64,000 bases of DNA from a bacterium (GTDB lineage Bacteria; Planctomycetota; Planctomycetia; Isosphaerales; Isosphaeraceae): assembly GCA_016125085.1 (NCBI GenBank), contig WGMM01000043.1:1-64000 (forward strand), read 5' to 3'. The first letter of the stretch is position 1; every line of letters starts with the position of its first letter. Below the pieces are notes generated by a model, which saw nothing but the letters and a program-made list of their open reading frames with translations, was not told the origin of the DNA and did not search any database. Positions 8,048 to 33,000 of the stretch are shown here, piece by piece. The position numbers and the translations under genes are program-made.

Positions 8048-8560
8048 TCAGGACGATTCGGAGTCGAGTCCCATTTCGCGTGCGAGGGTTCGATTCAGTG
8101 CCCATGCACGGTTTTGATCGCCACAAGTTTCGGTAGGCGGAAAAGGGCAGAGCGGAATGCTTTTGGTCTCTTCCTTAAGCACATCCGAAAGTGTCGAGTT
8201 TCGGAAGGCGTTTTCGACCATCGCCAGCGCGGAATCCATCCTCGAATGCAGCGGACAGAGATTCGAGCCGTGCTCGGAAAGACCCAGCGGACAACTCCGG
8301 ATTCGCTGGATCGGCTCGACGGCGTTCACCACGTCCAGAATCGTCAGATCGTCGGGCTGTCGGGCCAGCGTGATACCGCCACCGAGCCCGCGCTGACTCT
8401 TCACCAGCCCGGCTCGACGCAAGCCGCTGAGGATTTTCGCCAGATAGGCACGAGGCACACGCGTGGCATCGGCGACTTCTTCGGTCGTACTTGCCTTCGG
8501 AGCCTGTTGCGCCAGATGGACGACAGCCCTGAGGGCATATTCGACAGTCTGAGTGAACAT
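8048..8560 (-). CDS. Rrf2-family transcriptional regulator (170 aa)
   Basis: The N-terminal 80 residues form the Rrf2 winged helix-turn-helix (MFTQTVEYALRAVVHLA, then VPRAYLAKIL and the wing SQRGLGGGITLARQ). Members bind DNA, many through an Fe-S cluster that senses NO, iron or redox state (NsrR, IscR, RsrR). Two cysteines lie in the sensor loop (C90 in RSCPLG and C102 in NLCPLH), each followed by PL, and two more occur in the C-terminal tail. The spacing differs from the C-x5-C-x5-C of NsrR and IscR, so the cluster type is uncertain. The start at 8560 follows a G-rich stretch; the frame continues to 8623 but the family starts here. It is divergent from two protoglobin genes, which suggests gas or nitrosative stress as the signal. 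Confidence 0.9.
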   Translation of the reverse strand: MFTQTVEYALRAVVHLAQQAPKASTTEEVADATRVPRAYLAKILSGLRRAGLVKSQRGLGGGITLARQPDDLTILDVVNAVEPIQRIRSCPLGLSEHGSNLCPLHSRMDSALAMVENAFRNSTLSDVLKEETKSIPLCPFPPTETCGDQNRAWALNRTLAREMGLDSESS

Positions 8561-8586
8561 TTCGATCGCCCCCCAAATGGATACGG

Positions 8587-8607
8587 ATTTGATAATTATA
8601 TCCAAAT
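8587..8607 (-). promoter_or_regulatory. Probable promoter -10 and AT-rich dyad upstream of the Rrf2 gene
   Basis: On the minus strand a perfect TATAAT (8595-8600) lies inside an imperfect AT-rich dyad with ends ATTTG and CAAAT. It is about 35 bp upstream of the Rrf2 start. No good -35 box is seen at 16-18 bp. Rrf2 proteins often bind AT-rich dyads at their own promoters, so autoregulation is plausible but unproven. Confidence 0.45.
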
Positions 8608-8849
8608 GTCGCCCAAATTTCATATATGGTTGTCCGAAAAATGATCCGGATGGGATACGAAATCGAGTTTAAATAACGATTTTCTCAAGGTTTAGAAGTC
8701 CCGATGCGCTTCGTTTCTTCCTCGTGTCCGTACAGCCCGTCCGACGTGGACTGCCTGCGACTTTGAGCCATGTGCCTGAAACACGAACGCACTGACCCTG
8801 CGAGAGGCGAAAATGCGGTATCCGTCGCCTGAGCCATCGCCTTGCTCGA

Positions 8850-8878
8850 TCGACTTTCGGAACGAAAATCACTATAAT
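8850..8878 (+). promoter_or_regulatory. Probable sigma70-type promoter for the protoglobin pair
   Basis: TCGACT (8850-8855, 4 of 6 matches to the -35 consensus) is separated by 17 bp from a perfect TATAAT (8873-8878). It points toward the protoglobin genes and would leave a leader of about 195 nt before the ATG at 9082. The rest of the 8561-9081 gap shows no gene. Confidence 0.5.
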
Positions 8879-9081
8879 CGGCCGCTGACAGGAGAGCGAA
8901 CGCCTGAACGAGAAATCTGTCTGGTAAGGTGTCCGGCGACGTTCCTCGTCCCTGACGATCCGGGCACATTCGTAACCGTTCGGAGTTAAGAGGCCACCTG
9001 GGCTTCGGACTCGTCGCATGGATTTTGCGGATCTGATCCCGCTCAAAATTCAAGCCGGTCCCATACGGGAAGAAAAGTTCG

Positions 9082-9660
9082 ATGTCGATCAAGATCGTTG
9101 ATGAAGCCGCACTCGAAATCGACGTGGAATATCGATTTCGATACGTCAGGGATTTTGTCGGACTGACATCGTCCGATGTCGAAGCGGTCCGAGAGAGTTC
9201 GCATCTTCTGCGAGAGAAAATGCCGCAGCTTGCTGACGCGCTTCTTACGAAACTTCTGGAAACCGATGAATCGATGCGATTCTTCGTGCCGACCGATGAG
9301 GCCAGAAATTCCCGGCGGTCCGCCAATTCGCAAAACCTGACACAGGATCATCCGCGAGTCCTCCAGATCCGGCAGAATGTCATTCAATTTCTCGACGAAC
9401 TGGTAAGCGGTCAATACGACGACCCGGCTTTCGCGTTCGCACTCGACAAGATCGGGGCGACTCATGCAAGGGCGGATCGAGCGGACGCGAAGGTGCCCAT
9501 GACGCAGATCAATGCCATGATGGGATTTCTGTCCGATCGCCTGATTGCGAAAGCCCGTTCTCTCGGCTTACCGCACGATCGCGAAATCGCCCTGATCACG
9601 GCGCTTCAGAAATTGATCTGGATCCAGATGAACATGATGGTGCGTCATTACGTTCGATGA
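9082..9660 (+). CDS. Protoglobin-domain protein 1 (192 aa)
   Basis: The whole protein fits the protoglobin / globin-coupled-sensor globin domain, of about 190 residues. The N-terminal part has the typical RFRYVRDFVGLTSSDVEAV stretch. The proximal haem ligand is most likely H128 in the motif KIGATHAR, matching the [VI]GxxH pattern, and a helix VPMTQINAMMGFL follows as in the family. There is no signalling domain after the globin, so it is a stand-alone gas-binding protein (O2, CO or NO) in the cytoplasm. A GGAAG stretch precedes the ATG. It is followed 109 bp later by a second, divergent copy, and it lies downstream of a divergent Rrf2 regulator. Confidence 0.85.
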   Translation: MSIKIVDEAALEIDVEYRFRYVRDFVGLTSSDVEAVRESSHLLREKMPQLADALLTKLLETDESMRFFVPTDEARNSRRSANSQNLTQDHPRVLQIRQNVIQFLDELVSGQYDDPAFAFALDKIGATHARADRADAKVPMTQINAMMGFLSDRLIAKARSLGLPHDREIALITALQKLIWIQMNMMVRHYVR

Positions 9661-9769
9661 TTTCCTCCGAGTCACGCCTGTCGTACCGGACCGCGAATGA
9701 TCACGAAATTTGACCTCTGCGTTCCGATGATTCCAGCTGATTCGCTTCGATGAATGGGATGGCAGGACC

Positions 9770-10378
9770 ATGGTGAGGGATTCGAGCGATCAGGAGCATC
9801 TCGAAAAGTTCCGTCAATTACGGAATTTTCTGGAGCTATCGGACTCCGAAATTCAGGCGGTCCATGAGATCAGCGAACGTCTCGAACCGGTGCTGAACCG
9901 TTTGATCGAAGATGTCTACGAACATCTGACCGAACAGGACTGTACGCTCCGCCATTTCGCACGTCCGCAGAACTCCTATACCGGGCCAGTTCCTAAGACG
10001 ATCGAAGAGATCACGCCCGACCACCCGCTCATGAAATTCCGCAAGCAGGCGACTCTGAGATACCTGATTTCACTGATCAGCCGCCCGCTCAACGAACCGT
10101 TCATCCAGTATTTGAACTGGGTCGGCATGATCCATCATGCAAAGGCTGGAGCGACTCGATTTACCGTGCCCGTGGTTCAGCTCGAAGCTTTGATGGGTTT
10201 CATCATGCCAAGACTGACTGCCGGCATCGGGGAACTGAAACTCTCGCGGCATCGGGAAGAGAAAGTCATGCGTGGCCTGCAGAAGCTGCTGTGGATCCAG
10301 AACGAATTCATCCTGATGCATTATCATGGCAGCATCCCCAGCGAGGATTCTGGCAAGGCGAGGCACGATCTCGGCTGA
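9770..10378 (+). CDS. Protoglobin-domain protein 2 (202 aa)
   Basis: This is a second stand-alone protoglobin. It has FRQLRNFLELSDSEIQAVHEI near the N-terminus, where family members carry the Z-helix and A-helix. The proximal histidine is H122 or H123 in WVGMIHHAK, again matching VGxxH. FTVPVVQLEALMGFIMPRL is the next helix, and KLLWIQNEFILMHYH closes the fold. It shares the same end (LQKLxWIQ) with the upstream gene, so the two arose by duplication and have diverged. AGGA lies 8 bp before the ATG. Two globins could bind different ligands or form a heterodimer; this is inference. Confidence 0.85.
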   Translation: MVRDSSDQEHLEKFRQLRNFLELSDSEIQAVHEISERLEPVLNRLIEDVYEHLTEQDCTLRHFARPQNSYTGPVPKTIEEITPDHPLMKFRKQATLRYLISLISRPLNEPFIQYLNWVGMIHHAKAGATRFTVPVVQLEALMGFIMPRLTAGIGELKLSRHREEKVMRGLQKLLWIQNEFILMHYHGSIPSEDSGKARHDLG

Positions 10379-10416: not shown

Positions 10417-12441
10417 TCATTTATCGCCTGATTTCGAATCAGGTTCGGGTTCTTTCGGTTTGCTGGCGAACGTGATGCGATCCTCTTCAGGAGCATTCGC
10501 CGGCTTTTTCAAAGTGGCGAGTTTCTCCCGGTGGACGGCCCCAAGCTCCTTATCGTCGAGATACTCGTAAATCTGGGCCATGGTGTTATGAAGATTCCAT
10601 TCGTTCGGGAAAGTCGCGAGGCAGCGTTCGAGTAAAGTTTTCGCCTCATCCACACGACCGAGTCGTGCCAGAATCTGTCCTTTGGTTTCGATGAAATTGA
10701 GATTGTCAGGCGCTTCGGCGAGTGCCCTGTCGATCAGTTTCGAAGCCTCTTCATAGCGATAGGGCGGGAACTTGTAGTAAAGGGCAGCCAGGTTATTGAA
10801 GACGCCCGGATCATTCGTCGGGACGGCGATCAGGCGTTCGTAACATTCGATGGCCAGGGGCCATTGGCCGGCAGCATGAGCCGCCATAGCGGTTCTGGCG
10901 AGGATTTGAGGGTCGACAGTTGCGGCCCTGATTCGGGTCAAAACCCAATTTCTGGCTTTTTGCGAGGTCCGATCAGGAGTTGCGATCGCCAATCCGATCG
11001 CCATATCGATCAATTCCGGGTTATTCGGTTCGCGATCGAGGATGACGGTCAGCCGATTCCAGGCGGCGTCCGGGTTGAGGGGTACGCTGCGCACCTCGCG
11101 TACCAGCGTGAGGTTTTCGAATTCGCGTTTCCAGCGAGCTTTGCCTTCGGCATCGATTCTGGAGTTCGCTTCGAGCCATGCCAGAAACTCGTCATCTTTG
11201 CGAAGCAGACTCGAAAGCCGTGCCCTGGCGGCGATCTCCTGTTCGTCGATGAGCGGATTCTGGGCCATTCGCCCTTCGATTTGCTGCAACGCATCTTCGG
11301 CGTCCTTGACCAGTTGCGCGGTCGGATCGCCTGAATCGATGTTCCAGGACAACCAGAGAATATCGCATCGAGAGACGAGATCCGCGTTGCGAATCGGCAG
11401 GAGGATCGCCATGGCGGAAGCCAGATCGCCACGCACAGCAGCGGCATTGGCCAGAACTTTGCGGGCCCGAATTTCCTTTTCCTTCGAAAGTGGGCCGTTG
11501 AGCGATTCCGCGAACTTTTTGAGTGCGAGATCGGCCAGCTCCGAGGAACCTTCAAGCATGGTGACGAACCGTTCGGCGACATCGAAACGGTACTCGGCGA
11601 TGACCAGATCGCGCTGATCGGATTCACGCGCGATCAGCAGCCGCACGGCTTTCTGATAGTCTCCGTTCGCCACGAGCGTGTCGAAATAGGACAGCAGATC
11701 TCGGGAATCCGCCAGAGGCGATGAGATAATACGATCGCCTATCAGCGAGGCTTCTTTCGTACGATTGCCATGAACGGCATCGGTCCATGCATCCTGGTAA
11801 CGGGCGAACGAGGCAGCGGCATGCTCTTTCGACTGGATGATCGAAGGCATGGCCACGCCGAATCCGAAGAGAACGGCAGGCGACATGGCCGCGATCCAGT
11901 GCGGAACTCGATACCTGATCGCCTGTCGAACGTATTTCTTGATGAAGTAGATCGGACGCTGGCGATAGGGAATCCGGACGTCGGATGCGCTTTGATCCGT
12001 ACTCCCGACACCGAACGCCGATTTTTTCGCCCGTTCACGCCCTTTCGAGGCTTCGATTTTACGTGCTTCGCGTGCGAGCCGCTGCTGAAGCACCTGGGCC
12101 TTGCGAACCTTGAGATAACGTTTCAGGTAGTCGCCGATTCCTGTCAGTGGAACGGATAGAGGTGGCGACACCGGGGGCGAGGCCTGGTTCTGATCTTGCT
12201 TTACCGATTCGACTTTGTCGTGCGTTTTCGGCTGCTGGACAGGAAAAGGCGGTGGGACGATCGGGTCCGTTGAAGGTGCGGATTTCTCGAGTTCACGAAG
12301 CTCACGGGCACGCGCTTTGGCGGCGAGCTTCTTCGCGATCGCTTTTTCTTCACGCCTGATCGCCCGTTCGCGCTTTTTCCGGCGGATCCATCGACGGAAT
12401 CGTTCCGCGAGCGGTTTTTTGCGGGAATCCGACCGATCCAT
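10417..12441 (-). CDS. Membrane TPR protein, paralogue A (674 aa)
   Basis: The N-terminal 55 residues are a very basic, helical segment (RFRRWIRRKKRERAIRR) likely to form a coiled coil or bind acidic surfaces. A Pro-rich linker (about 56-100) and a second basic helix (about 105-140) follow. A transmembrane helix lies at about 182-203 and is followed by about 470 residues of helical TPR repeats, clearest near the C-terminus (NNLAALYYKFPPY, ETKGQILARLGRVDEA, NLHNTMAQIYEYLDD). The TPR part is probably outside the cytoplasmic membrane. It is the last of three tandem paralogues. The ATG at 12441 was chosen; one at 12498 would overlap the upstream gene by 26 bp and lacks a ribosome-binding site. 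Confidence 0.8.
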   Translation of the reverse strand: MDRSDSRKKPLAERFRRWIRRKKRERAIRREEKAIAKKLAAKARARELRELEKSAPSTDPIVPPPFPVQQPKTHDKVESVKQDQNQASPPVSPPLSVPLTGIGDYLKRYLKVRKAQVLQQRLAREARKIEASKGRERAKKSAFGVGSTDQSASDVRIPYRQRPIYFIKKYVRQAIRYRVPHWIAAMSPAVLFGFGVAMPSIIQSKEHAAASFARYQDAWTDAVHGNRTKEASLIGDRIISSPLADSRDLLSYFDTLVANGDYQKAVRLLIARESDQRDLVIAEYRFDVAERFVTMLEGSSELADLALKKFAESLNGPLSKEKEIRARKVLANAAAVRGDLASAMAILLPIRNADLVSRCDILWLSWNIDSGDPTAQLVKDAEDALQQIEGRMAQNPLIDEQEIAARARLSSLLRKDDEFLAWLEANSRIDAEGKARWKREFENLTLVREVRSVPLNPDAAWNRLTVILDREPNNPELIDMAIGLAIATPDRTSQKARNWVLTRIRAATVDPQILARTAMAAHAAGQWPLAIECYERLIAVPTNDPGVFNNLAALYYKFPPYRYEEASKLIDRALAEAPDNLNFIETKGQILARLGRVDEAKTLLERCLATFPNEWNLHNTMAQIYEYLDDKELGAVHREKLATLKKPANAPEEDRITFASKPKEPEPDSKSGDK

Positions 12442-12472
12442 AGAATCTGCCTGAACTTTCGTCACGTTTGCG

Positions 12473-14506
12473 TCAACGCCGGCCCCCCTGGGCGGCATTT
12501 TTCGGTGTGTCTTTTACGAAATCCGCCAGCACGGCGTATCGATCGGCATCCGTGGGTTTTGGGAGCGTACTGAGTATGTTCCGGTGTGCGGCGGCATTCC
12601 GGGTATCGCCCTGCCGTTCGTAGATCTGGGCGAGCGTGTTATGCAGGTTCCATTCTCTGGGCAACGCCGGTATCGTACTGACGAGAATTTCGCGTGCCTC
12701 GTCGAATTTGCCCATGCGTGCCAGAATCTGGCCTTTGGTTTCGAGGATCACGAGATTCCTCGGGGCGAGTTCCAGAGCTTTATCGACCAGGCGAAGCGAT
12801 TCTTCGAGGTCTCGAGGCGGGAACTTGTACAACAGCCCTGACAAATTATTCAGCGCGGATACGTCGTTGGGTTGTCGTTCGAGGACTTTCCGGTAAAACG
12901 CCCGGGAATCATCCCAGCGACCGTTCATGTGAGCCGCCATACTCCCCTGCCGCAGAAATTCGATATCGGCCGAATCGGACTGGAGACGCTCACGCACCCA
13001 GCGATCGAGCGGGCTCCCGGGCTTTCGTTCGTCGCGGGCCCAGATTCCCAGAGCCAGTCGAAGCCAGGCCTGGTTGTTCGGCTCCGATTCCAGAAGCGGC
13101 TGGAGGCGTGCCCAGAGAACTTCCGCCTTGACCGGCTTTTTCCGGCCTTCCGTCAATAACGAGAGTTTTTCCAGCTCGAGAGCGATCCCTTTTCGGTCTT
13201 CTACCGAGAGATTTTCGACTTTCCCCAGCCAGGAACGGGCTTCCTTTTCCCGGTCCAGAATCATGAGAAGACGCATCCGAGCCCGCAGGGCGGAAAGTTC
13301 GCCCAATGACTCGACCGGTCTGCCTGTGTCGATATTCACCAGCAGACCGGAAGCGGCGGATCGAATCTGGCCGAGTTCGTCGTCGCTCGCCCGATTGAAC
13401 TTGAGAAACAGCAGATCGGCGGCGATGAAGGGCGACCGGCTGGCAATCGGTTCGAGATACGCCTCGGCGGCATCGAAATTGCCCTGGATGATCGCGACGT
13501 TGGCTAACATCTGGCGGGCTTTTTCTTCGTCTTTCTCCGGCAACGGTCCGGCCGTGCTTTCCCTGAGTTTGCCGAAAGCGAGATTGCGCAGCCCGGGACG
13601 CCTGGAGAAATCGGGCAGCTTGAACAGCTGTTCGGCCAGTCGATATCGATATTTCGCGAGGTCTGCCGATCGCACCTGGGACTCGCGAGAAAGGAGAAAG
13701 CGAACGGCTTTTTCCTCGTTACCCGTCTTCATAAGGCAGTCGAAGTATCGAAAATCGTCGTCGACATTGAAGGGGCCGCTCTCCAGAAGCCGAGTGCCGC
13801 AAAGCTCTGCGGCTTTCCATGTCTCCGATTTCACCAGTTCCTGCCATTTCGCCGAATACTTCAGCCGTTGCGTCGCGGCACTGGCAGTCGTATTCGTCAC
13901 TGCCGGAATCACGGCCGTGAGCAGAAACACGATCGAAGGCACGATCGCAGCCAGCCACTGCGGAACACGGAGATAAATCAGTTCAGACCAGAGGGTGCTG
14001 ATGAGCCTTGAGAAAGAGAACTTGAGATTTTCGTCCTGATCCGCTGCACCGTGTCTCGTACCTCCGACGGCAAACTCGTCGTCCGGGCCGTCGAGACGTT
14101 TGGGGTTCGCGAATCCTTTTCTCAGCTCGCCTTCGATCGCCTTGCGTTCTTTTCGGATCTCCTGGCGCATCCTCGCTGCTTCACGCCACTGAGCGAACAG
14201 TCCTCCTTCTCCAGGGGGAGCGTCGAAACCGGTGGTTCGATCTTCAGGCAGGACGCGGACACGGGAGACGACGGTCTCATTGTCGGACTGGGTTTCGGCA
14301 CTGCCGTACGAACGGGCCGAAGGCTTCGGCATGTCGCGCGACTGGGCGGGCATTCCGTCTCGCGTCTGCTTTTCTTCCTTCTCGAATCGGCGCAGCTCAC
14401 GACGCTCCGCGGCCAGGATGCGGCGATGTTCGCGCCAGGCGCTCCATCGCTGCGTCAGAGCCTTGAGAAAACCTGATTCCTCCGGATTGTCCCACGAATC
14501 ATTCAT
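12473..14506 (-). CDS. Membrane TPR protein, paralogue B (677 aa)
   Basis: The layout is the same as in the neighbour downstream: an acidic-basic helical N-terminus (about 20-48), a linker, a second charged helix (about 106-130), a transmembrane helix (about 183-205), then TPR-type helices to the end. Diagnostic blocks shared with both neighbours are LNNLSGLLYKFPP, ETKGQILARMGKFDEA and EWNLHNTLAQIYE. A GGAG lies 12 bp before the ATG. The short gap to the next gene (31 bp) points to one operon. TPRs bind protein partners; no enzyme domain is visible. Confidence 0.85.
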   Translation of the reverse strand: MNDSWDNPEESGFLKALTQRWSAWREHRRILAAERRELRRFEKEEKQTRDGMPAQSRDMPKPSARSYGSAETQSDNETVVSRVRVLPEDRTTGFDAPPGEGGLFAQWREAARMRQEIRKERKAIEGELRKGFANPKRLDGPDDEFAVGGTRHGAADQDENLKFSFSRLISTLWSELIYLRVPQWLAAIVPSIVFLLTAVIPAVTNTTASAATQRLKYSAKWQELVKSETWKAAELCGTRLLESGPFNVDDDFRYFDCLMKTGNEEKAVRFLLSRESQVRSADLAKYRYRLAEQLFKLPDFSRRPGLRNLAFGKLRESTAGPLPEKDEEKARQMLANVAIIQGNFDAAEAYLEPIASRSPFIAADLLFLKFNRASDDELGQIRSAASGLLVNIDTGRPVESLGELSALRARMRLLMILDREKEARSWLGKVENLSVEDRKGIALELEKLSLLTEGRKKPVKAEVLWARLQPLLESEPNNQAWLRLALGIWARDERKPGSPLDRWVRERLQSDSADIEFLRQGSMAAHMNGRWDDSRAFYRKVLERQPNDVSALNNLSGLLYKFPPRDLEESLRLVDKALELAPRNLVILETKGQILARMGKFDEAREILVSTIPALPREWNLHNTLAQIYERQGDTRNAAAHRNILSTLPKPTDADRYAVLADFVKDTPKNAAQGGRR

Positions 14507-14608
14507 CAGCTTTCTCCGGAACTTCCTGCCGTTGAGCCATCATCCGTGTCATACGTACGAACCTGTTCCCACGCATTAGTTTAACATCGTTATGCAGTCT
14601 GACCATAC

Positions 14609-16198
14609 CTATTGCTTCAGTGCATTAAGTTTCTCGAAAGAACCGGCATCCGCCGGGCGGGGCAGCTTCGCGAGTAACTCGCGATGCGCTTTGGCCAGCG
14701 CGGTGTCACCCGACTTTTCGTAAATCTGAACAAGCGTGTTGTGGAGCCCCCATTCCTCGGGCAGCGGGCCCAGGCATTTTTCCAGAATCGTTCTGGCCTG
14801 GTCGATTCGCCCTGAGCGGGCCAGCAACTGGCCGATCGTTTCCTGAATCGCTGGCTGATCCGGAGCGAGCCTGTCGGCTTCCTGAGCCAGCCTCAGCCCT
14901 TCTTCCAGATTCTCCGGTTCGTGCTTGTAAATCAGAACGGCCAGGTTATTCATCGCGACGGCATCTTCCGGGAACCGCTTGAGGAAATTCCGGTAGAGTT
15001 TTCGCAACAGCCTGGAATCCTCGGCCGTTCGGCCGAAGACTTCGTACTGGCCGCTGAGCGCCACGAGGGCCTGACGAAGCAGGAAGTCGTTGGCCGAGTC
15101 GTCGTCGAGACGGGATTGAACCCACAATTTCGCAGGCTCGGTCCCGATCCGGACCGGACCGGCCCAGATCGATACGACGAAACTCAACCAGATGGGATCG
15201 TCGGGTTTGCGTTCGAGAACCCGTTCGAGCTTGGACCAGTCGGGCAGCGTTCCGTCCGCCGAGTTCTTCATCGACGAGACAAGCTGCATCTCCGCGAATT
15301 CCGAATCGATCGACTTCCGGGCCTCCGGTGCGAGCGTCTTCTGCAGTGCGAACCACTCCGCGGCTTCCGCCGAACGGCCCATGATGACCAGCAGGCGTAA
15401 CTTGGCAAGCACGTTATCAGGATTCGGAACTCGCTGGGCCCTCAAGTCCCGCTCCAGCCGGTCGAGGACGCGGTCAGTCGCATTCGCGTCAAACTCCAGA
15501 TTGCCCGACCAGGCCAGCCAGAGTGCTTCGGCACCCGCGACCGGGCTTTCCGTCATGATCGGTTCGAGGGTCTTGAAGGCGGCAGCCAGATCCCCTTTGC
15601 GAACTTCGATCAAGGCGATTTTCCGGCGGGCCAGGATGGCATATTCGCCGGAATCGAGTTCGATGGTACGGCGCAGGTGGCGTTCGGCATCGAGCAATTG
15701 CTTATCCGTCGCCGCGGGCTCGCTCAAGAGCATATTCGCCAGCCGGAAATGGTAAATGGGGTTGGACTTCGCATCCTTGCGCGTCATGGCGCTCAAAATC
15801 GCCATGGCTCGCGTACGATCGCCCTTCGCCACGAGATAATCGAGATAACGTTCGCGTGTGACCAGATCGGAACTGTCCGACTTCAACAGGCGAGTGAATA
15901 CGACTTCCGCTCTGGATTTCGAGTCGCTGGCCGGAAGCCCCGCCAATTCTTCATGATATTTCGCGTGGTTACGAGCGACCGTGGCTGCGGAGCGTTCCCG
16001 GAAGGCAGGAATCAATGTCAGTACGATCCCGACGATCGCAGGAACCGCGCCGAGAAGCGCCTTGCCCAGTTCCACGATCCGAGGCGGCCGAAAGGCCAGA
16101 GGAACTCCCAGAAATCGGAACTTGAAAACGACTTCGGATCTCTCGTTCGAAGAAGGCGTCGATAGAACAGGCCTGGAGGCGCGTTTTCTGCGTGGCAT
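14609..16198 (-). CDS. Membrane TPR protein, paralogue C (529 aa)
   Basis: This is the shortest of the three paralogues. The basic coiled-coil region is missing; the protein starts with a basic tail (MPRRKRASRP) and reaches its transmembrane helix at about 45-65. The TPR part covers the remaining 460 residues, with AMNNLAVLIYKHEPENLEEG, ETIGQLLARSGRIDQA and EEWGLHNTLVQIYEKSGD matching paralogues A and B. It is the first gene of the set, 102 bp upstream of paralogue B. The differing N-termini suggest the three paralogues face different cytoplasmic partners while sharing the same outer TPR surface; this is inference. Confidence 0.85.
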   Translation of the reverse strand: MPRRKRASRPVLSTPSSNERSEVVFKFRFLGVPLAFRPPRIVELGKALLGAVPAIVGIVLTLIPAFRERSAATVARNHAKYHEELAGLPASDSKSRAEVVFTRLLKSDSSDLVTRERYLDYLVAKGDRTRAMAILSAMTRKDAKSNPIYHFRLANMLLSEPAATDKQLLDAERHLRRTIELDSGEYAILARRKIALIEVRKGDLAAAFKTLEPIMTESPVAGAEALWLAWSGNLEFDANATDRVLDRLERDLRAQRVPNPDNVLAKLRLLVIMGRSAEAAEWFALQKTLAPEARKSIDSEFAEMQLVSSMKNSADGTLPDWSKLERVLERKPDDPIWLSFVVSIWAGPVRIGTEPAKLWVQSRLDDDSANDFLLRQALVALSGQYEVFGRTAEDSRLLRKLYRNFLKRFPEDAVAMNNLAVLIYKHEPENLEEGLRLAQEADRLAPDQPAIQETIGQLLARSGRIDQARTILEKCLGPLPEEWGLHNTLVQIYEKSGDTALAKAHRELLAKLPRPADAGSFEKLNALKQ

Positions 16199-30023: not shown

Positions 30024-33000
30024 ATGTCGGCAATCGGTCGAAACAAGTGGAATGGGTATCCTCTCGCGGCTCTTTCGAGCGGATCGGCAAGGAGGCGTAG
30101 CTTGCGTAACCGTAACTGGACATGGCCGGCCGTTTTGGCTGCAGCGGGCCTCGCGGCCTCTTCGGCCGGAATCGATGCACAAACCGATCGCGAAAACGGT
30201 TCGGAGAACTCGGCAGTCCCGAACGCCAGTCCCGCCCGAGAATTGCAGGATTCGGGGCCGCCCGAACCTCCGCGTGCTCCACAATCGCCCGCCGGAGCCG
30301 CCGAAGAACCCGCGAAGGTGCTGAGCACGACCGAAGCCGTGATGCTTCGCAGCCGCAGCGCACGCACTCTGCTGCGAAACGGCACCGACTACATCAAATA
30401 TCAGCAGTTCGAAAAAGCCCTGGCCTACCTCCGGGAAGCCGAACGGCGGCAGAAAGAGCTGAACGCGACCGAGAAGACCGCGCTGCGGCAGGCTATCGAC
30501 ACGGCCCAGCAAGGTCTGCGTACGCCATCGCTTCAGACAGGCTACGCACGAACCAGGCGGCCTCAGGCTGGATCGATCGCCATCGCTTCACGCACGGCAG
30601 CCGCTTCGAAATCCGACCCCGCCGTCGCCCGAACCCAGGCCCCGGCCGAAGTCGCCGAGGCTCCTGCTCAGGCTCAAGCCGACGATCGCATGGTACCCGG
30701 GCAGCTGAGGCAGGCCGACCCCGACAAGCTGGCACCCCTTTCGCCTGAAATACTCGCGAAAGAATTGCCCAGTGCCGCTGACCTGGCCCAGTCCGATTCC
30801 GCACGCTCCGCCCTGAAGGAATATCAGGCTGCGGGCAGCGGATCGACCCAGCCACGCAAGCCGATCGAATTGCCCAGGCCGCTGAACGAAAAGATCGAAG
30901 CCCTCGAGGAGTCGGCAAGCCAGTATCAGGCAAGCGAGAGTCGTCCGGACCCCTCTCCCGCATCGATCGCCGCCAGCCTCGCGGCCATGCGTCGCGATGG
31001 TACCCCGGAACCGCTGCCAGGCAGCCCGGCTCAAGCGAATCTGACCGAAGAACCGCGACCCGTGGCACTGAGCGACGCCCCTGCTCCGCTGCCGGTCGAG
31101 GATACGCCGAAGGAAGATCAATCCGAACCTGCCCCGGCCGTACCGGCGCGAACCGAAGTATCTTTGGCCGAACCCGCTCCTGCGCCGGTCGTTGAGACCC
31201 CCGAACTGCCGCCTCTGGAACCGGCTTCGACCGAACCGCCTGCCGATCGCGAACCCAGACGGGAGTCCGCTTCGGATCCGATGCCGAGCCTCTCCGCGCC
31301 GGAAGCTGCGGTAGAGCGTTCGCCCGAACCGGTAGTTCCTTCCGGTGCTCCCGACCGTTCCGCACCGGCCGAAATGCCGCCGCTGCCTGTAGAGCCTGCC
31401 GAATCGCCATCGGCCAGTGAGACACCGGAACCCGCCGCCGAGTTCGTACCTCAAACTCCAGAGCCGTCTCCGGCTATGCCTGATCTGCCAGCGGAGCCCG
31501 TCGTCACGAAGGTCGAAAAACCCGTCGAACCGGCTGCCGCGGAAGCCCCCGGAGCCACGCAACCGGGTATCGATCCGCTGACCGTACCTGCCGATTCTAC
31601 ACCGGCCGAAATGCCCCTGGCGAACATGCCCGCGGAACGCGACCCGAACCTTTCGAAAGTTCAGGATCTCGTCTCGCCCGCTTCGAAGACGCCTGAGGCT
31701 TTGACGGCACCTATCAAGCATGATGTCGCCGAAGAAACAGCCCGGCCAGATGCGGCGGTCGAAACCACGGCGACTCCAGCCGAACCTCGTGATCTGCCGC
31801 CGCTGTCCTCTGGTGCCGGTGCCAGGTCTCTGAATGATTCCCTGCCGCCTCTGCCGGTTCAGCCGATTGCGGAAGCCGCCGACGAATCGAGCGATCTGCC
31901 ACCCCTGCCCGATCGTCCGACAATCAGCTCACCTGCTGACAACGGCGGTCTGCCACCTTTGCCGACCGGCGGCACGGCGACTCAACCGGCGACGCCCCAG
32001 CCCGTCGATCTGGCCCAGCCTGTGACGGAAGAACCGACCAAGGCCGAGCTGCCGCCTTTGCCGACGGCTGCCGCCGAACCTGCTGCGATGCCACCCTTGC
32101 CGACGGCCTCGACAGTAGAATCCCCGGCCAGCACCGAAGCCATGCCGCCGCTGCCCGGCGCCGCGGAAGCTCCGAAGGCCGCTGAACCGGCCACGAATTC
32201 CGATTCGCTGCCGAAGCTGCCGGATACTCCGCCAGCACCCACGGCAGTCGCGGAAGATTCGCTCCCGAAATTGCCTGAGGCTCCCATTCGTACCGCCCAG
32301 GCAAACCCCGCCGATGCACGTGCGATTTCGGGCTCGAGCGATTCGCTGCCGCCTCTTCCGGCCGAAGAAATCGCCGGTGGCACCGCTGCCGTGCCTGCGA
32401 CGACCGAAACAGCCAGGGCAGAACGGCCTGCGTTCTCTCGGCGGCTGCTGTCAGGCCTCAGCGATAACAAGCGACGTGAAATCGAAGAACTCGCCCGGAT
32501 TCAGCTGGAACGCTCAGGCGGTGCCACGCCCGGCCTGTCGCCACTGGATTCCCCTGCCCGAGAGGCTGGCGATTCGCCCCGGGTACCGCTGCCGGCCGGG
32601 AACACGTCCATGTTCGGTGCGACCGACGACCCGCTTGTTCGTCTGGAACTGCCCCGCGCCCCCAGCCCGGCCGAAGCCCGGCCGATTCGGGCGATCCTGC
32701 TGCCAGAGCAGTTCGATACGCTCAAGCAGCGTGAATTCGAGCCGAGGCGCAAGATGTGGGCCTCAGCCGCGACCGCCCACTACCCGCTCTACTTCCAGGA
32801 CCCGAGCCTGGAACGCTACGGCATCTCGGTCGAACAGCGCATGGGCCGTGCCGGCCGCAAGCTGACCTATCCGATCGACGATCCGAAGGAAAGCAAGCTG
32901 CGGAACCAGATCGCCACGCCGTTCTTCTCCAGCGGCCTGTTCGCTCTGCAGATCGCCACATGGCCATTCCGGGCCATCGCCGATCCGCCGTGGGAATCCA

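Follow-up and report, generated by a model that had tools for sequence, protein, structure and literature searches.

Here an Rrf2-family regulator lies divergent from two tandem stand-alone protoglobins, and this arrangement raises the question of what such a regulator responds to and whether the three genes form a single unit of control. The stretch analysed (hereafter the window) comprises 64,000 nucleotides of a planctomycete genome. A preceding reading made from the letters alone (the sequence-only reading) had placed these three genes here and proposed that they make up a compact gas or nitrosative-stress module. The gene arrangement is confirmed by Pfam matches, as follows.

8048–8560, minus strand: Rrf2-family regulator, 170 aa from the ATG at 8560 (PF02082)
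9082–9660, plus strand: protoglobin 1 (P0002), 192 aa (PF11563, 94.8 bits, cut-off 25)
9770–10378, plus strand: protoglobin 2 (P0003), 202 aa (PF11563, 89.0 bits, cut-off 25)

The regulator and its conserved residues

The regulator belongs to the Rrf2 superfamily, scoring 108.5 bits against PF02082 (cut-off 30) and 117.7 bits against TIGR00738 (cut-off 73.3). The longest open reading frame starts at 8623, and the ATG at 8560 (MFTQ...) is preferred as the likely start because homologues align from the Met of MFTQ. Numbering from this ATG gives C90 and C102, in agreement with the sequence-only reading. In an alignment of 38 sequences C90, H97, C102 and H105 are invariant and E7 and C138 are conserved in at least 90%, while the position six residues beyond C90 is not a cysteine and is followed at +7 by the invariant H97; C138, H97 and H105 went unmentioned in the earlier reading. 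The cluster ligands of ScNsrR are C93, C99 and C105 together with Asp8 of the other subunit, and those of IscR are C92, C98, C104 and H107 (PMC5411485), so that C90 and C102 match the outer pair and H105 matches IscR H107.

Compared with NsrR of Escherichia coli, Salmonella and Streptomyces coelicolor, the regulator shares the Rrf2 fold, the distance of 12 residues between the first and last ligand cysteines, an acidic residue (E7) which by eye appears to sit at the place of ScNsrR Asp8 and, as predicted here, control of an NO-handling globin. It differs in having no middle cysteine (a conserved histidine stands one residue beyond its place), in the additional conserved histidine and C138, in failing to reach the NCBIfam NsrR equivalog cut-off (59.4 bits versus 182) and in having a protoglobin in place of flavohaemoglobin. 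We regard the regulator as NsrR-like in its predicted function and not as a member of NsrR; the claim of a cysteine spacing unlike that of NsrR holds. The NCBIfam IscR equivalog cut-off is likewise not reached (51.7 bits versus 207.55). Among solved structures the best profile match is RsrR (3e-19, 32% identity), and by fold the nearest are RsrR, CymR and IscR, with NsrR somewhat lower. The helix-1 ligands of RsrR are Glu8 and His12; E7 of the regulator aligns with Glu8 and R11 with His12.

A divergent pair and its operator across Planctomycetota

Close relatives of the regulator (E up to 1e-20) were found in 87 of 392 genomes of the phylum and the protoglobin domain in at least 138. The two genes are adjacent in at least 20 genomes including that of the window, as counted by reading the match tables, and one genome counted apart from these (G359) has an Hcp gene between Rrf2 and protoglobin. 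After removal of duplicates the divergent Rrf2–protoglobin pair occurs at 69 distinct loci, the window included, which is far above chance. When named genomes were scanned, with the best 80 of 395 loci taken and hence a bias to close relatives, 47 loci had a divergent protoglobin; Blastopirellula marina DSM 3645, where the pair is accompanied by both operators (see below), strain Pan216 and a Gimesia bin are represented there. In the flanks examined of the other 33 there was no globin and in many of them no operator either. Several relatives of the regulator adjoin unrelated genes and no operator is found there. Within the same family, relatives of P0003 are present in 16 of 45 genomes, and in 8 of these 16 there is one globin, divergent from an Rrf2 gene 61–70% identical to the window regulator.

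Every other linked locus examined has a single adjacent globin (at L197 one globin in two pieces). The conserved phylum-wide unit is an Rrf2 gene divergent from one protoglobin. Surveyed across planctomycetes, the proposed three-gene set is therefore upheld as far as the linkage of Rrf2 to one globin is concerned and fails for the tandem pair; as a conserved unit the three-gene module was rejected, with one adjacent globin elsewhere and none in two genomes of the same genus (G034 and G035). At one locus (L049:6259-6880, genome G012) the protoglobin gene consists of two neighbouring fragments; the gene may be broken or the assembly may be at fault. One linked pair (L175) lies on a 3-kb low-coverage contig titled Armatimonadetes; in the tree its globin is placed with those of planctomycetes, and the contig may be contamination.

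The intergenic regions of the linked loci have in common a 22-bp inverted repeat, AAttGGAY-N6-RTCCaaTT (putative operator type AATTGGAC-N6-GTCCAATT), a GGA-N8-TCC pattern that differs from that of NsrR sites as generally known. It scores 13 bits or more at 65 of the 69 loci, and 48 of the 69 carry a second copy, 38–51 bp (mostly 42–48 bp) from the first. The scoring matrix was made from regulator–protoglobin intergenic regions only, with the exception of one regulator–Hcp region (L126), and away from the regulator the background was 11 sites of at least 13 bits in 881 kb. The first copy overlaps the −35 box of the globin promoter (TTGACA exactly in 45 of 71 loci, TTGA in 64 of 71) and a TAnnnT box follows 16–18 bp past the −35 box in 65 of 71, all these promoter counts preceding the removal of six duplicate loci. 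The second copy lies about where transcription is expected to start. Such a layout of paired sites would suit a repressor that blocks RNA polymerase. For RsrR of Streptomyces venezuelae a divergent target gene adjoining the regulator and paired intergenic sites are likewise described (PMC5015018), although the RsrR site has an 11-3-11 form, whereas the planctomycete one, by the definition used here, spans 22 bp and has no central gap.

When an operator model made from sequence only was run on 24 whole genomes, it gave matches in 20 at E up to 2, the strongest being mostly Rrf2–protoglobin intergenic regions. The window genome gave no match at E up to 2, and a pattern search of it with a loose consensus yielded 33 hits versus 32 in the control, so that the operator alone is unusable for listing the regulon.

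The tandem globins and control in the window genome

Both globins are single-domain proteins with no second domain in the Pfam search, and at 31–32% identity they are, as previously stated, different genes. The proximal histidine is kept in all 83 rows of the protoglobin alignment (H128 in P0002, H122 in P0003; aligned with AfGcHK His99) and both proteins are likely to bind haem. The column aligned with the distal AfGcHK Tyr45 is tyrosine in 82 of the 83 rows (Tyr50 in P0003), the sole exception being P0002, which differs from AfGcHK-type globins in having Leu55 at this place. In AfGcHK, Tyr45 is important in O2 recognition (PMC8697598). The ligand preference of P0002 may differ from that of P0003.

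In a tree of the 83 rows, whose bootstrap had yet to converge, P0003 pairs as sister with the protoglobin of contig C19 of the window genome (100/100), and these two group with the protoglobin of contig C59 and that of G036, a genome of the same genus (100/99). The branch to P0002 is extremely long (about six changes per column), which makes its placement unsure. The tandem globins are fast-evolving, long-branch paralogues. Altogether five protoglobin genes and three Rrf2 genes are present in the window genome, and among four genomes of the genus the P0002 and P0003 types are found in this genome only. The window regulator is orthologous (75–80% identical) to single close copies in G034, G035 and G036; beside it there is no globin in G034 (L151) or G035 (L150), the globin side being assembled in these two only, as the G036 contig starts inside the regulator. 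From these comparisons the tandem globins look like recent, untypical additions beside the regulator. The contigs L150 and L151 are titled Candidatus Kuenenia and match G035 and G034, respectively; the titles look wrong. Downstream of the globins (10417–16198, minus strand) lie three genes in a row, encoding proteins of 693, 677 and 529 aa, which BLAST clusters together and which form a local expansion.

Two features were noted in or beside the 521-bp gap between the regulator and globin 1.

8586–8607, minus strand: weak operator-like inverted repeat, 12.5 bits, overlapping the TATAAT (8600–8595, minus strand) of the presumed rrf2 promoter
8850–8878, plus strand: candidate sigma-70-like promoter for the two globins, TCGACT - 17 bp - TATAAT, a consensus match only and read by eye

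The repeat at 8586–8607 is the best in the 64-kb window (the next, at 30114, scores 12.4 bits), where no operator reaches 13 bits, and it is 475 bp from globin 1. It is accepted as a probable operator of the regulator only because G034 and G035 retain the half-site TTGGATATARTTATC there, with variation in its first base. There is no operator beside the candidate promoter at 8850–8878, and beyond the weak regulator-side site none is recognisable near the tandem globins. Since the tandem globins belong, within the genus, to this genome alone, evolve fast and have no other recognisable operator nearby, the compact three-gene module is not supported in the window.

Better sites lie on other contigs: an operator of 20.1 bits upstream of an Hcp–protoglobin operon (contig C7, L031:9599-11551), one of 16.9 bits before a cytochrome gene and one of 13.7 bits before the C59 protoglobin, which suggests that the window regulator probably acts mostly in trans, its credible targets being elsewhere in the genome. 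We picture a regulator that would retain apparent autoregulation while acting mainly on these three, the tandem globins being lineage-specific extra copies for which control by the adjoining regulator is unproven. A related explanation, confined to the window and compatible with the main one, is that the original linked globin has moved (to C59) and that the present two landed by chance and are under other control. That the regulator's orthologues in G034 and G035 have no globin next to them, the grouping of P0003 with the C19, C59 and G036 protoglobins and the absence of a canonical operator before globin 1 all agree with such a relic, but a divergent position by this regulator is the rule elsewhere in the phylum, and the globins may have been retained or re-acquired under its control; we regard the relic explanation as having an even chance of being correct.

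Predicted targets and the nature of the signal

Operators were sought within 350 bp upstream of three sets of genes and were present at 5 of 7 Hcp genes, 2 of 4 genes for quinol-type NO reductase and 18 of 30 genes of a mono-haem cytochrome c family. Taken together 25 of these 41 upstream regions carry a site, versus a mean of 0.16 (maximum 6) with 300 column-permuted matrices. It was operator matches that first drew attention to the cytochrome family, and about 10 of its 18 operator-bearing genes, as read from the match tables, had already been listed in this way; these sites are not independent because they led to the family, leaving roughly 8 that are. Hcp and NorB-type NO reductase are families of NO enzymes. 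The Hcp of G359 scores 608.2 bits against TIGR01703 (cut-off 360.8) and the homologue in the window genome is 79% identical. A second protoglobin stands next to the Hcp gene in G343, G092 and the window genome. The Hcp-linked globins, including the C7 copy of the window genome, form one clade of the 83-row tree (100/99). The NO reductase protein combines a NorB cytochrome-c-like domain with a COX1 domain and is therefore of the quinol type. NO reductase was absent from 24 of 28 genomes, that of the window included (E 1e-50), and Hcp from 21 of 28 (E 1e-40), so that the NO detoxification genes are patchy.

The cytochrome family, present in 26 of the 28 planctomycete genomes searched, consists of proteins of about 440–480 aa in which a CxxCH motif is invariant and most of which have a hydrophobic stretch at the N terminus; examples are L274:4257-5621 (P0004) and, in the window genome, L318:1501-2745. 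It had no match in Pfam, NCBIfam or PDB and none by Foldseek under E 0.001. The structural model is confident (pLDDT 88), and in VIA-align a 450-aa member gave Z values of 2.3 and 2.1 to cytochrome c'-beta and P460, which are weak and tied with unrelated rows. The fold was not called new. The family offers a new target for NO biochemistry.

Strong operators also precede Tll0287-like haem proteins in G351 and G424, while in G040 a Tll0287-like gene lies between regulator and globin with a site of just 11.6 bits. According to a preprint, Tll0287 domains bind c-type haem, a signalling form binds NO and a stand-alone Tll0287-like protein binds it weakly (PMC12889525). Matches in single genomes with no clear recurrence (ceramidase-like, GDSL lipase, pyruvate:ferredoxin oxidoreductase, FMN oxidoreductase, DUF1553 and ECF sigma genes) were set aside, and a 20.3-bit site near a P-type ATPase in the window genome (L283) was left out of the target count because it had been picked for its site.

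In other bacteria hcp and NO reductase are under the control of NsrR. Since the operator precedes a set of NO-detoxification genes (Hcp and NO reductase, and haem proteins besides), the idea of nitrosative stress is supported by inference, and this part of the original proposal stands for the Rrf2–protoglobin pair as a member of a regulon of that type. We consider it probable that the regulator is a planctomycete-wide Rrf2 repressor working like NsrR, with an NO-detoxification regulon. With its cluster in place the regulator would occupy 22-bp inverted repeats that cover the −35 box and start site of its target promoters, and by damaging or displacing that cluster NO would release the target genes: the single-domain protoglobin, Hcp, the secreted mono-haem cytochrome c family, Tll0287-like haem proteins and, in some genomes, the quinol-type NO reductase. 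The divergent linkage, the operator with its placement and its recurrence before these genes, and the conservation of the Cys and His residues are what the computation shows; the Fe–S cluster, NO as the signal and repression as the sign of control are what we infer in this scheme. An operator common to protoglobin, Hcp and NO reductase suggests for single-domain protoglobins a direct part in NO defence that can be put to the test. The protoglobin (Pgb) of Methanosarcina acetivorans is likewise a PF11563 single-domain protein, whose proximal histidine both window globins share; unlike it, the bacterial single-domain protoglobins described here fall in a predicted regulon with Hcp. A 2013 abstract describes the biological role of the Methanosarcina protein as ‘still unknown’ (PMC3680402).

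It is unlikely, in our estimation, that the regulator is instead a redox or oxygen sensor like RsrR, with mixed Cys/His/Glu cluster ligands and with haem targets that serve O2 or electron handling and not NO. RsrR is its closest solved structure by both profile and fold, its conserved E7 lines up with Glu8 of RsrR, and c-type haem proteins account for several of the targets; on the other hand the operator is carried by genes for Hcp and NorB-type NO reductase, which are NO enzymes. Unlike RsrR, the planctomycete regulator has a conserved C102-P-L-H105. The genes governed by RsrR are related to NAD(P)H and glutamine and are not NO genes (PMC5015018). An IscR-like sensor of Fe–S status with incidental control of haem and Fe–S proteins is very improbable, for although C102-x-x-H105 repeats the step from Cys104 to His107 of IscR (PMC5411485) and the protein is of the Rrf2 superfamily, its score is far below the IscR cut-off, the scan of neighbours and of genes with an operator revealed no isc or suf gene, and what recurs among the targets is globin, Hcp, NO reductase and cytochrome. 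It also differs from IscR in the absent middle cysteine and in having, among the genes scanned, targets other than those of Fe–S biogenesis.

Within the NsrR-like explanation a more specific reading may be put forward tentatively, namely that Planctomycetota have their own class of NO-sensing Rrf2 repressor, with a Cys2His-type site, a GGA-N8-TCC operator, protoglobin replacing flavohaemoglobin and new secreted mono-haem cytochromes as the most recurrent distant target. The site would be formed, with the same reservation, by C90 and C102 together with H97, H105 or both, to which the partner subunit would perhaps add its E7; this would make the regulator a natural case of a (predicted) Rrf2 cluster site with no middle cysteine and with conserved histidines nearby. 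In the window this reading would leave one duplicated globin without the O2-stabilising tyrosine, which may be a dedicated NO or nitrite globin.

What is described here amounts to a predicted NO regulon for Planctomycetota. In the literature searched, outside which lay most subscription journals and preprints, we found no description of such a regulon, no work treating Rrf2 together with protoglobin and none on protoglobin with hybrid cluster protein and nitric oxide. The one match for Rrf2 with planctomycetes and nitric oxide concerns Magnetospirillum, and of those for NsrR and planctomycetes none is on a planctomycete NsrR to judge by title. On contig C44 of the window genome (L034:7374-9038) there is a second Rrf2 gene of the group, 52% identical and with the motif one residue shorter, which is followed by two Tll0287-like haem proteins.
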